A stretch of DNA of 64,000 nt from Polaromonas sp. AER18D-145 (lineage in GTDB: Bacteria > Pseudomonadota > Gammaproteobacteria > Burkholderiales > Burkholderiaceae_C), in contig NZ_NBZV01000005.1 of assembly GCF_002379095.1 (NCBI RefSeq), positions 62,001 to 126,000 on the forward strand, written 5' to 3'. Position 1 is the stretch's first letter. Every line of letters starts with the position of its first letter. Below are positions 15,903 through 20,785 of the stretch, piece by piece. Both the position numbers and the translations under genes were made by a program. The notes beneath the pieces were generated by a model. It did not search any database. It saw only the letters and a program-made list of their open reading frames with translations, and was not told the origin of the DNA.

Positions 15903-17225
15903 TCAACCGGGCCGCGCGTCAGCACGCAGGCGGCCATACCAGTTGCCCAGCCGCACACCCCACACCCCCATGACACCGGCCCACAACAGCGCGGCCGCCA
16001 GCAGCAGCCAGCCCGCAAGTGCCGTTTGCGCGGCAGCCACAATGCGCAACAGCGTCGCGGCCTGCAGCAGCCAGAACAGCGTCCAGATCAGGTTGTCGGC
16101 CACCAGCGCACGGCCGCTGTGGCCACAGGACACCCGCGTGACCATGGCCAGCATCAGCGACGCCAGGCAGCCCATGGTCAGCGCATGCAGCGACCCGAGG
16201 GCCAGCACCGGCGCGTCCTGTCCCAGGCCCAGCCACTGCGAGAGCCCCCCGAGCACCAGCGCCAGGCCGAGCCAGAAAAATCCGATGTGCAGCATGGCCA
16301 GCAAACGGTTCTTGAAGCTTTGCACCAGCCCCCAAACGACAGCGAGCCAGAGCAGCACGCCGCCCGCGGCCAGTTCGAAGGCACCGCGTGCCACCTGCCA
16401 GACCGTGCCTGCCGTGCCTTGCAGCGGACCGTCCAGCTCGACCCACACGGCTACCACCTCGGCCGCGGCGACGGCCAGCATCAGCCACAACACCCAGAAC
16501 GGACGCCAGGCGTCGATGCGCGGCAGGGCACTGGACGTGAAAAACGGAATCATGCGGTGCGCCACCGAGACATAGACCACCACCACAAACCCCCACAACC
16601 CGGTGAGGATGCAGGCGCGCGCCACGTCGGGCTCGCCCAGCAGCAGGCTGAGCGCCAGACCGGCCAAGCTCAGGCAGCCCACGATGCAGGCCGCGCCTGC
16701 CGTGCGCGCATGCACCTGGTCGTCAGCCTGACTGCGCCGGACCAGCCCCCAGAACAACGCCGTCACCCAGGACAGCCCCGCACAGGCCAGCACCAGCCCG
16801 GCCAATGCCGTCAGGCCATGCAGGTGCGCGCCGGCCAGGCACAGCAGCCAGCCTGCTGCATGCAGCAGCAGTGGCACGCGAAGCTGCCGGGGCGTCAGAG
16901 GCGGCACGCCCAGCCATTTGGGCCCGGCCGTGAAGAGGAAACCCGAGAAGAACAGAGGAATAAAACCAAAGGTCATGACCGCACCATGGGCCAGCGAGGG
17001 CGACAGCGCATAGGGCAGGCTCAGCACGGGACTGACGCGGTCAAGCTGCACCAGCGCCCACCAGCTGCCTGCGGCCACCAGCACCACCATGGCCAGAAAA
17101 AAACCCAGCCGGTGCGGCGCCAGCAGCAGATGGCTGGCGCGCCAGCGGCGGTCCACGCTGGCCCGCTCGCTGGCCGTGGGTTTGCCCGGCCTCACCCGCA
17201 GGGCGATGACCGGGCGCTCACTCAT
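15903..17225 (-). CDS. nnrS: NnrS family heme- and copper-containing membrane protein
   Basis: About 440 residues with roughly 12 membrane segments. Conserved NnrS pieces include LSPSLAHGAVMTFGFIPLFF, SGFLFTAGPKWLGVPPL, VAHRMIPFFTSSAL and LHALTMGCLASLMLAMVTRV, each with a histidine placed to bind metal. NnrS proteins are linked to denitrification and to tolerance of nitric oxide in the cytoplasmic membrane. Its ATG overlaps the nrdJ stop (ATGA), so the two are translationally coupled. Context in a nitrate respiration cluster agrees with a role against NO made during nitrite turnover. Confidence 0.92.
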   Translation of the reverse strand: MSERPVIALRVRPGKPTASERASVDRRWRASHLLLAPHRLGFFLAMVVLVAAGSWWALVQLDRVSPVLSLPYALSPSLAHGAVMTFGFIPLFFSGFLFTAGPKWLGVPPLTPRQLRVPLLLHAAGWLLCLAGAHLHGLTALAGLVLACAGLSWVTALFWGLVRRSQADDQVHARTAGAACIVGCLSLAGLALSLLLGEPDVARACILTGLWGFVVVVYVSVAHRMIPFFTSSALPRIDAWRPFWVLWLMLAVAAAEVVAVWVELDGPLQGTAGTVWQVARGAFELAAGGVLLWLAVVWGLVQSFKNRLLAMLHIGFFWLGLALVLGGLSQWLGLGQDAPVLALGSLHALTMGCLASLMLAMVTRVSCGHSGRALVADNLIWTLFWLLQAATLLRIVAAAQTALAGWLLLAAALLWAGVMGVWGVRLGNWYGRLRADARPG

Positions 17226-20200
17226 CCGCAAACGCCCAGGTGGCCGCACTGGGTGCAGTAGTCACAACCGTCCTTGCGGATCACCGCGTGGGCGCCACAT
17301 TCGCTGCACTTCTTGCCCGCCATCACCGGTGGCGCAAGCGCCATGTCGACTTGGGGCTCCACCACGGTTGCGACGCTGGCAACGCCCTGCTGGGCGCGCC
17401 GCGCAATGATGTTCTGCACCGCATAGGCAATGGCTGCAACTTCCGAGTCGTGCCACAGCGGCACGCGTGTGCCGTCGGCCTTCTCATAGGTGCCCAGCCG
17501 CACCGGGCCACGGTCCCAGGCCACCTTGCGCATGTCGCTGAGCGCACGCTCGAGGAAGCCGCCGCGCGCGGCCAGCGACAGCATGCGCATGCTGGAGGTG
17601 ATCCACTGCTGCGACTCGCCGCTTTGTCCCACCGGCATGAAAAACTCGATGGCACGTTCAACCGTGCCCTCGCCGCTGGCCGACGGCACCGGCAGGAAAG
17701 ACACCACGATGTAGAGCGTTTTGTGGCCTTCCTGCGTCCAGTAGTCGACTTTTTCGGCGACGGCCGACAAGGCGCCCTTGGGTCGGCTCTCGATCACCGT
17801 GCGCATCGGATCCATGGGCACCGCCGTGGCCGGCGCGGCGGCGGGCGCATGGGTCTCCAGCACCGAGCCCAGAATCGCATTGGGCCGGTAGGTGGCCAGG
17901 CCCTTGAGCTTGGCGCGCCAGGCCTGCTGGTACAGGCTCTTGAAATCCTCGTAGGCGTAGTCGACCGGCACGTTGACGGTTTTGGAGATCGCCGTGTCCA
18001 CAAAGGGCTGCACCGCTTCCATCATGCCAATGTGGCTGTCCGCCGACATCTCGAGCGCCGAAACAAAGTAACCGGGCAGCTTGTCCACGTCGCCGCCGAG
18101 TTCGCGGTACAGGCGCCAAGCATGGTCTTCCACCGCGTATTCGGTGGTGCTGCCATCGGACTCGCGTTTCTTGCGCCGGTACATCCACGAAAACGGTGGC
18201 TCGATGCCGTTCGACGCGTTGTCGGCAAACGCCAGGCTGACCGTGCCGGTCGGTGCAATCGACAGCAAGTGGCTGTTGCGGATGCCGTTGGCGCGGATGG
18301 CCTGTTGCAGGGCAGCCGGCAAACGGCTGGCAAAGGTGCCTGCGGCAAGATACCCGTCGGCGTCGAACTTCGGAAATGCGCCCTTTTCTTTCGCCAGTGC
18401 GACCGAGGCGGCGTAAGCCGCATCGCGCATGGCGACAGCAATACGCGCCGCCATCTCGCGCCCCTCGGGCGCGTCGTAACGCAGGCACAACATGGCCAGC
18501 GCATTGCCCAGGCCGGTAAAACCGACCCCGATGCGGCGCTTGGCGGCCGACTCGGCCTGCTGCTGCGGCAGCGGCCAGAAGGTCACGTCCAGCACGTTGT
18601 CGAGAGCACGCACCTGGGTGGTCACCGACTTGGCGAAAGCCTCGAAATCAAAGTCCGGCACGCCATTGAAGCCAAAGGGATGGCGCACAAAACGCGTGAG
18701 GATGATGGGTCCGAGGTCGCAGCAGCCATAGGGCGGCAGGGGTTGCTCGCCGCAGTTGTGCACGTAAAGACCGTTGGCGTCAAAGGCATGGATGTCAGCC
18801 ACCGTCACATCGAAAACGTCCTCGCAGCCGTCTTCGGTCAGCGACTCGACCGTGGCTGTGAAGCGCTCGCGGTTGAGGCTGCGGTTGTAGCTGCCCAGCG
18901 CATGGTCCAGCCGCTCGGCCTTGTCGGTATCGGCAAACCCGATGCGCTCGGCGTAGATACGCAGGTTGTCCCCGCTGATGACCAGCTCATGCTGTGCTGC
19001 CGTTTCGTAGAGCTTGAGGCCGCCTCGCCCGTCGGGCAGGGGTCGCTCTTGCGCCAATCGGCGGTTCTGGTAAATCGTTGAGACGATGCCCAGTCGCAGC
19101 AACATGCGCTGCGCCGTCTGGAGCAAAGGCAGATCGCTTTGCGACAGGCGCACACTGACGCCTTTTTCCTGCGAACCCTGAACGGAGCCATCGGCATCGA
19201 ACAGTCCGCGCAACAGGCCCGCTGCGAACGCTGAAGACGTTTTCTCCATCGTAGGCGTGAGGGTCTTGTGGCCCGGCCGCATTCCCATACCATGCGCGAG
19301 CTGGCCCAAGGCGGCAGAAGCCATGCGCGCCTCGCCGCGCCCTGCCACCGGACGCTGAAAGCCGCAGAAATCAGCCCGATGGCACAGCGTGGCCGCAGCC
19401 GCTTCGGCCGCCTGCACAATGCCACCTGCGCCGGTTTGGGCGTAAGCCACGGCACCATTTCCGACGACCTTCAACTCGGGCGCCCAGACCGAAATCACGG
19501 CCTTTTCGCTATTGAGCGTGCCATCGCCGACCAGCAGCCCCAGCAGGTAGCCTTGCGCCTCGGTGCCGACGCCCTCCCAGCCGCCCACCGAACGGTGATC
19601 GTTCAGCAAAATCTCATCGCCGGGCCGCAACTGCCCGGCTTCAACCCACTCGGCTTGCAGCGTGTAACGGGTCCTGCACGCCACGCGCCGTACCCGGTGC
19701 TCGGCAGTGAGGTGCAAGGCATGTCCTTCGCGTGTTTTCAAAGCCAGCACGGGTTTATAACCCGTGCTGAAAAACCCTTCGCTCTCCACGGCGTACGCCT
19801 TGCCATCGACCACCGCACTGAAGGGCCGCCCCACGAGGTCCAACACCTGTGCCGGTCCATCCGTCGTCATCACCCACGTATCGGCCGTGACGCAGGGATT
19901 GGTCGCCGCAATCTCTTCGCAGTAACGCAGGTTGTTGTCCTGGTTGATGTGGTCCAGGAACAGGATGCCGGGCTCGGCGAAGTCGTAGGCCGAATGCATC
20001 ACGGTGTCCCACAACTCGCGCGCGGCCACGGTCTGGTAGACCCACAGGCCGTCGGCACGCTGGAACGCGCCTTGCGCGATCAGCGGGGCACCGGGTTTGG
20101 CCTTGTGCACCAGCTCCCAGGGCTGGTCTTCGGCCAGGGCGTGCATGAACGCGTCCGGCATGCCGACCGACACATTGAAGTTGTTCCAGCGCCCGGGCGT

Positions 20201-20785
20201 GCGCTTGGCGGTGATGAACTCGTGCACATCAGGATGGTCGATGCGCAGCACGCCCATCTGCGCGCCGCGCCGCGCGCCGGCGCTCTCCACGGTGGAGCAG
20301 GACTGGTCAAACACATTGATGTAGCTGCACGGACCGGAGGCCATGGACGCTGTCGCCTTGACCTCGGCGCCGCGCGGCCGGATGCGTGAAAAATCGTAAC
20401 CCACGCCGCCACCGCGCCGCATGGTTTCGGCGGCTTCGCGCAAGGCCTCGTAAATGCCGGGGTAGCCGCCGTCATCGACGCCCTGGATGCAGTCGCCCAC
20501 GGGCTGCACAAAGCAGTTGATCAGGGTCGCCTGGATGGCCGTGCCGGCCGCGCTCATGATGCGGCCGGCGCCGATGGCGCCAGCGTGCAGGTTCTCGAGG
20601 AACAGGGCCTCGTGTTTGGCGCGCTCCGCTTCGGGTTCGACCGAGGCCAGGGCCCGCGCCACGCGCCGGTACAGGTCTTCCACACCCGACTCGCCGGGTT
20701 TGAGGTATTTTTCCTTCAGCACGTCGTGGCTGATGGGCTGGGTGGCCGTCATGTCCTGAGGCCGACCGAATTGATCGCGTTTCAT
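17222..20785 (-). CDS. nrdJ: Adenosylcobalamin-dependent class II ribonucleotide reductase with intein
   Basis: The precursor is 1187 residues; removing a 380-residue intein (residues 298-677) leaves an 807-residue enzyme. Reductase features are LINCFVQPVGD near the N-terminus, RRGGGVGYDFSRIRPRG, SAGARRGAQMGVLRIDHPD, NPC|GEQPLPPYGCC around the splice site, SIAPTGTVSLAF, a TSCPD-type segment and a C-terminal zinc-ribbon (CSEC...CDYCTQCG). It reduces ribonucleotides using a radical from B12 and works with or without oxygen. The ATG overlaps the upstream stop (ATGA). Location inside the nitrate-respiration gene run suggests use during anaerobic growth. No nrdAB is in the window. Confidence 0.95.
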   Translation of the reverse strand: MKRDQFGRPQDMTATQPISHDVLKEKYLKPGESGVEDLYRRVARALASVEPEAERAKHEALFLENLHAGAIGAGRIMSAAGTAIQATLINCFVQPVGDCIQGVDDGGYPGIYEALREAAETMRRGGGVGYDFSRIRPRGAEVKATASMASGPCSYINVFDQSCSTVESAGARRGAQMGVLRIDHPDVHEFITAKRTPGRWNNFNVSVGMPDAFMHALAEDQPWELVHKAKPGAPLIAQGAFQRADGLWVYQTVAARELWDTVMHSAYDFAEPGILFLDHINQDNNLRYCEEIAATNPCVTADTWVMTTDGPAQVLDLVGRPFSAVVDGKAYAVESEGFFSTGYKPVLALKTREGHALHLTAEHRVRRVACRTRYTLQAEWVEAGQLRPGDEILLNDHRSVGGWEGVGTEAQGYLLGLLVGDGTLNSEKAVISVWAPELKVVGNGAVAYAQTGAGGIVQAAEAAAATLCHRADFCGFQRPVAGRGEARMASAALGQLAHGMGMRPGHKTLTPTMEKTSSAFAAGLLRGLFDADGSVQGSQEKGVSVRLSQSDLPLLQTAQRMLLRLGIVSTIYQNRRLAQERPLPDGRGGLKLYETAAQHELVISGDNLRIYAERIGFADTDKAERLDHALGSYNRSLNRERFTATVESLTEDGCEDVFDVTVADIHAFDANGLYVHNCGEQPLPPYGCCDLGPIILTRFVRHPFGFNGVPDFDFEAFAKSVTTQVRALDNVLDVTFWPLPQQQAESAAKRRIGVGFTGLGNALAMLCLRYDAPEGREMAARIAVAMRDAAYAASVALAKEKGAFPKFDADGYLAAGTFASRLPAALQQAIRANGIRNSHLLSIAPTGTVSLAFADNASNGIEPPFSWMYRRKKRESDGSTTEYAVEDHAWRLYRELGGDVDKLPGYFVSALEMSADSHIGMMEAVQPFVDTAISKTVNVPVDYAYEDFKSLYQQAWRAKLKGLATYRPNAILGSVLETHAPAAAPATAVPMDPMRTVIESRPKGALSAVAEKVDYWTQEGHKTLYIVVSFLPVPSASGEGTVERAIEFFMPVGQSGESQQWITSSMRMLSLAARGGFLERALSDMRKVAWDRGPVRLGTYEKADGTRVPLWHDSEVAAIAYAVQNIIARRAQQGVASVATVVEPQVDMALAPPVMAGKKCSECGAHAVIRKDGCDYCTQCGHLGVCG
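18755..19894 (-). mobile_element. LAGLIDADG intein inside nrdJ
   Basis: A 380-codon in-frame insertion. Splice features are Cys1 (CVTADTWVMTTDG, block A), TAEH in block B (HLTAEHRV), block F (CEDVFDVTVADIHAF), the terminal His-Asn (YVHN) and a Cys +1 supplied by the host enzyme. The endonuclease part has both dodecapeptide motifs, GYLLGLLVGDGTL and GLLRGLFDADGSV, with their acidic residues intact. It interrupts NPC-GEQ exactly before the cysteine expected to carry the thiyl radical, so the enzyme is inactive until splicing occurs. Base composition is close to that of the host gene. All key residues are present, so splicing should work. Confidence 0.93.

Follow-up and report, generated by a model that had tools for sequence, protein, structure and literature searches.

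A class 1 LAGLIDADG intein at the active-site cysteine of a Polaromonas class II ribonucleotide reductase, best read as a homing element

The class II ribonucleotide reductase (RNR) gene nrdJ of Polaromonas sp. AER18D-145 lies in a 64,000-nucleotide stretch of contig NZ_NBZV01000005.1 (positions 62,001 to 126,000, hereafter the window) and is interrupted by an intein directly before the codon of its active-site cysteine. Does an insertion at such a position regulate the enzyme, or is it a selfish element that persists there for reasons of its own? A first-pass annotation of the sequence raised the possibility of regulation and suggested oxygen or nitric oxide (NO) as a possible signal. The best overall account, which we consider very probable, is that this is a homing class 1 LAGLIDADG intein at the NP↓C site of NrdJ (the arrow marking the splice junction) and not an enzyme regulator.

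The NrdJ precursor (positions 17222-20785, minus strand) comprises 1187 residues, or 807 once the intein is removed. Within it, 18755-19894 is a stop-free frame of 380 residues that starts with Cys and ends with His-Asn; the other two minus-strand frames of this interval contain eight stops each. NCBIfam models assign the host protein to NrdJ_Z above the cut-off, and Pfam recognises the RNR barrel, LAGLIDADG_3 and the intein splicing domain in the precursor. The splicing domain scores 37.8 bits against a cut-off of 35.8 when the 380 residues are searched alone, and lies below that cut-off in the whole precursor (33.7) and in the genome search (21.6). In a profile search of the host genome with PF14528 and PF14890, the sole match was this locus, with PF14890 below its cut-off. 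All residues expected of a class 1 intein are present (Cys1, a TxxH block B, a His-Asn end and Cys+1), as are two LAGLIDADG motifs with their acidic Asp residues intact, and the predicted structure contains a Hint splicing fold and a LAGLIDADG domain. Judged by these residues and the modelled fold, 18755-19894 encodes a complete class 1 intein that includes a LAGLIDADG endonuclease and is placed at NP↓C in a class II RNR. Conservation of the key residues (Table 1) was counted over 119 inteins, a set that leaves out P0001 and P0054.

The B12-dependent RNR of T. maritima (PDB 1xje, 1xjk) can be aligned to both halves of NrdJ. Its Cys322, within the motif TNPC, is matched twice: by residue 298 (the intein's Cys1), where the N-terminal part ends, and by residue 678 (Cys+1), where the C-terminal part starts; Cys+1 therefore occupies the place of Cys322 after splicing. 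We take this residue to be the thiyl-radical cysteine. The first-pass annotation was exact in its coordinates and splicing residues and in reporting intact acidic residues in both endonuclease motifs, and its assignment of the +1 residue to the active-site cysteine of NPC-GEQ agrees with this alignment, the radical role being presumed. Since the intein sits directly before the radical cysteine, the unspliced precursor should be inactive, its normal active site being unavailable.

In class 1 inteins, attack by Cys1 is followed by transfer to Cys+1, Asn cyclisation and rejoining of the exteins, and two Cys nucleophiles are the ordinary state. In the NrdJ precursor, the residues and modelled fold suggest that Cys1 would attack the bond to Pro-1 after translation, the chain would pass to Cys+1, and cyclisation of Asn380 would release the intein, leaving NrdJ rejoined with its radical cysteine intact. 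NrdJ activity would thus wait for splicing. As the M. thermautotrophicus RIR1 intein illustrates, the first splicing step is slowed by a Pro at -1, and Pro-1 is found in all 80 of the loci analysed from a scan of named genomes (the best 80 of at least 515 relatives). It has been considered whether Pro-1 and the active-site junction make excision rate-limiting, with oxidation of Cys1 or Cys+1 delaying it, such that intein-plus strains start anaerobic deoxynucleoside triphosphate synthesis later. We regard this as improbable; if true, natural filled and empty pairs such as the window's genome (G000) and G069 would allow the delay to be measured directly.

The N-extein was found in 44 of 87 Polaromonas genomes (E <= 1e-30). 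At the same threshold it is absent from the other 43, including 22 of the 49 with at least 90% completeness and at most 5% contamination; with half of the genus lacking it, nrdJ is therefore an accessory gene. The intein query matched 20 of the 87 genomes: 15 carry this lineage at the site (in one, G003, the intein is cut by a contig end), three carry a second lineage and two have inteins in apparent class I NrdA. At least 18 of the 44 nrdJ-bearing genomes are therefore filled. The site is empty in 22 copies, in which NP is joined directly to CGE (TNPCGE in 21, SNPCGE in one); these represent 21 genomes and a second copy in G020, and the intein query had no match anywhere in the 21 genomes. 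Five further nrdJ-bearing genomes (G074, G080, G091, G096 and G110) lie outside the site readings.

These empty copies bear on two alternatives. The segment is in frame and under purifying selection, as a fixed enzyme domain would be, and the first-pass annotation had named relatives with such a domain as the finding that would overturn its own. The intein-free relatives contradict it: alignment shows a clean insertion missing from 22 copies, and with the complete intein motifs and modelled fold this leaves a fixed domain barely credible. Alternatively, the intein might aid assembly of the enzyme, for example by keeping the barrel open while the protein folds or takes up its cofactor. There is a precedent in the Aquifex aeolicus NrdB intein, which parts two iron ligands and whose host protein, when made with the intein, is described as having more iron and twofold activity (PMC8772380). 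That 21 Polaromonas genomes have intein-free nrdJ and no match to the intein query argues that the intein is dispensable there. Further, the class II enzyme is not known to have a metal site where the intein is inserted, and we consider an assembly role very unlikely.

The history of the intein differs from that of its host gene. On an extein tree of 35 rows (13 filled, 22 empty; G085 was left out for its truncated N-extein), at least 12 changes of intein state are needed, six of them forced by well-supported branches, and the scatter of intein state is no better than that of shuffled labels (469 of 500 as low). Both this and the intein tree omit the second-lineage genomes G019, G062 and G023, and G003 with its contig end. 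The window's nrdJ pairs with intein-free G069 (support 97/90), and both fall in one six-row clade (support 100/99) with G090, the closest intein-bearing gene. The G000 and G090 exteins share 94.6% DNA identity and their inteins 80.3%, with synonymous divergence (dS) of 0.22 and 0.87, respectively. The two inteins fall apart on the intein tree, and a topology constrained to unite them is rejected (log-likelihood lower by 77, AU p 0.00046). Separate acquisition from different donors would be the simplest reading of this conflict. Intact motifs, clean insertion, patchy presence and the conflict between intein and extein together suggest homing, in which the endonuclease would cut nrdJ alleles that lack the intein, at the conserved active-site codons, and a copy of the element would be inserted. 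We propose that the intein persists through homing and the difficulty of loss from an active-site codon, and not through regulation of the enzyme.

In support of this, the endonuclease (residues 106-338) has a median ratio of nonsynonymous to synonymous divergence (dN/dS) of 0.114 over 78 pairs. Medians for residues 1-105 and 339-380 are 0.138 and 0.088, calculated over the same 78 pairs with saturated dS left out (one and six pairs, respectively), and the exteins have a median of 0.105 over 66 pairs; the ratios are rough because intein dS is near 1. The endonuclease thus appears to be under purifying selection, a pattern that suits a homing element better than a domesticated switch, and the most likely reading of the NrdJ intein is that of a selfish, homing element and not of a fixed control element.

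Several observations weigh against this account. Within Polaromonas, intein and extein identities correlate (Spearman 0.46 over 66 non-independent pairs; G034 is left out of this correlation and of the dN/dS means); some copies may therefore have been passed down together with the gene, and G015 and G077 group together in both the intein and extein trees. No near-identical donor was seen: the best of 13 inteins from the genus has only 81.8% DNA identity, the top database relative has 86% protein identity among the matches listed, and a match of at least 60% identity is absent from 50,697 phage and 72,556 plasmid records. Finally, model confidence is low at the C-terminal end of the intein (residues 368-380).

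The nrdJ gene is flanked by genes for NnrS, a nitroreductase, a hemerythrin, a nitronate monooxygenase, a carbonic anhydrase, a PpiC-type isomerase and the gamma and delta subunits of nitrate reductase. An intein gated by redox state or NO, in which oxidation of Cys1 or Cys+1 holds NrdJ unspliced until conditions are reducing and anaerobic, would suit NnrS, nitrate reductase and hemerythrin as neighbours; both cysteines are catalytic, and Cys+1 stands at the presumed radical position. A possible disulfide partner also exists in host residue C289, nine residues before the junction and nearly invariant in 25 NrdJ precursors. However, three sisters align along the nrdJ block at 94-96%, one with the intein (L120) and two without (L121 and L122, whose alignments are gapped at the intein; L122 has an additional 3.1-kb stretch aligning at 91%). 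The empty sisters keep the nar/NnrS neighbourhood, and the context therefore belongs to nrdJ and not to the intein. Presence is scattered on the gene tree, the endonuclease is retained, and two Cys nucleophiles are ordinary in class 1. Cysteines 73, 171, 177 and 357 of the intein are Cys in 5, 1, 10 and 19 of 119 inteins, respectively, and in every intein column other than that of Cys1 at most 31 of 119 carry Cys. The intein thus offers no conserved disulfide partner of its own. The genome also encodes one other RNR large subunit, on another contig, assigned to class I alpha by NCBIfam models above their cut-offs (NrdE_NrdA, 697 against 341 bits). We therefore think a redox or NO switch quite unlikely. 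Cys1 or Cys+1 could be oxidised or nitrosated directly in any intein of this type, the window's being no special case. What stands of the first-pass proposal is an enzyme that, from the position of the insertion, should be off until splicing; the control point it drew from this has no support beyond position, and the fit to an anaerobic context is countered by the intein-free sisters, the scattered presence and the retained endonuclease. A well-studied redox intein is mycobacterial DnaB intein 1, in which the catalytic Cys is reported to pair with a second Cys (PMC6195587). The M. smegmatis DnaB intein 1 shares with the window's a catalytic cysteine in a splicing intein, but it belongs to class 3, and its disulfide-forming second Cys has no conserved counterpart inside the window's intein (PMC6195587).

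Beyond Polaromonas, 51 of 399 genomes in the family sample matched the intein (E <= 1e-15), in 36 of 141 genera; some of these matches are remote (about 30% identity), the second lineage among them. At the best 80 of the at least 515 loci from named genomes, the intein starts at TNP↓C in every case and ends at HN↓C(G/A)EQ in 78, with one of the remaining two reading SN↓CAEQ and the other cut by a contig end. Among 34 loci on viral contigs, some of them apparent near-copies of each other, 26 have the NP↓C junction with Cys+1 (one ending Ser-Asn), four align one residue later, after NPC (three with Ser+1), and four fit neither pattern. A quick, unrooted protein tree of 53 inteins (26 viral) places the bacterial lineage amid those from viruses, with the second Polaromonas lineage far outside. 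A phage or plasmid donor was rejected as a candidate, with nothing at or above 60% identity in the phage and plasmid records and at most 47% on the viral contigs.

Most phage RNR inteins (among them SPbeta BnrdE and those of IMG/VR viral contigs) are homologous over residues 1-380 but have diverged, to at most 47% identity for the viral contigs and about 27% for the SPbeta group. PI-PfuI (PDB 1dq3), which we take to be the P. furiosus RNR intein, has 15% sequence identity to the window's. The rir1-b allele, in ribonucleoside-diphosphate reductase, was listed in 2014 for 15 halobacteria, 55 bacteria and 5 other euryarchaea, with hosts including Polaromonas sp. JS666 (entered in the table under the phylum Cyanobacteria), Acidovorax sp. 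NO-1 and CF316 (PMC4071816). We find the same intein at TNP↓C...HN↓CGEQ in Acidovorax NO-1 and CF316 (L137, L138); the match to the rir1-b entries rests on strain and gene, and sequence divergence is the only difference found from the window's intein. Azotobacter chroococcum NCIMB 8003 has an intein with LAGLIDADG-3 in its class II RNR NrdJa (residues 321-690, about 370 amino acids), described in 2015 as missing from the A. vinelandii ortholog and as potentially shared by a small number of gamma- and betaproteobacteria (PMC4465626); it is likened to the window's by description (class II RNR, LAGLIDADG). Split phage RNR genes have been reviewed (PMC3653736). Inteins at the NrdJ NP↓C site are already known and common, and the window adds one member.

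As a single finding, this is one more sequence at a widespread intein site. Within one genus, this active-site codon is found either empty or occupied by one of two very different intein lineages, in some cases with the empty/filled contrast among genes about 95% identical in DNA. With the Polaromonas set, the cost that an active-site intein imposes could be measured cleanly, as could homing from one living species to another.

Table 1. Positions of the intein, its motifs and the flanking NrdJ exteins in the window
Feature	Position	Strand	Remarks
Intein, 380 amino acids	18755..19894	(-)	Between TNP and CGEQ of NrdJ; clean gap against intein-free sisters
Intein Cys1 codon	19892..19894	(-)	Cys in 119/119 inteins
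Splicing block B, T63-A-E-H66	19697..19708	(-)	T63 and H66 in 119/119
LAGLIDADG motif 1, residues 116-125, ends GDG, D124	19520..19549	(-)	D124 in 117/119
LAGLIDADG motif 2, residues 227-236, FDADG, D233	19187..19216	(-)	D233 in 119/119
Intein C-terminal His379-Asn380	18755..18760	(-)	Kept in 119/119
Cys+1 codon, NPC-GEQ cysteine of NrdJ (Cys322 of T. maritima NrdJ)	18752..18754	(-)	Aligned with PDB 1xje, 1xjk
NrdJ N-extein, 297 amino acids	19895..20785	(-)	
NrdJ C-extein, 510 amino acids and stop	17222..18754	(-)	

The second intein lineage occupies the same NP↓C site in L048, L049 and L050 (Polaromonas G019, G062 and G023), where it is 33% identical to the window's intein, and in L114 (G331), where it is 31% identical; it ends in Gly-Gln, not His-Asn. 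The draft genome G020 contains both a filled and an empty nrdJ (L042 and L081), with exteins 88.9% identical, representing either mixed strains or two copies. An apparent split intein in G399 was dismissed as an assembly break, its two parts lying at contig ends (C12, 311471 bases; C45, 197039) with a common repeated insert. In L051 (G075) and L052 (G096), apparent class I NrdA genes are interrupted by an intein right after the cysteine of NLC-TEI, and L052 has an apparent additional intein before GGKRKGAVC.

On the viral contigs, L225, L232 and L235 have inteins after NPC with Ser+1, one residue downstream of NP↓C. L234 (about 144 amino acids) and L235 (about 127) are inteins at the RNR active-site cysteine too short for an endonuclease. 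Decaying endonucleases occur at the same site in L112 (G459), which lacks the first motif, and in L116 (G242), which has GHG instead of GDG. Extensimonas inteins L117, L097 and L118 (compare L146 and L178) share a similar in-frame insert of about 50 residues, at two different positions, inside the endonuclease part or at its margin, and in two species, which looks like a short repeat element able to be translated.
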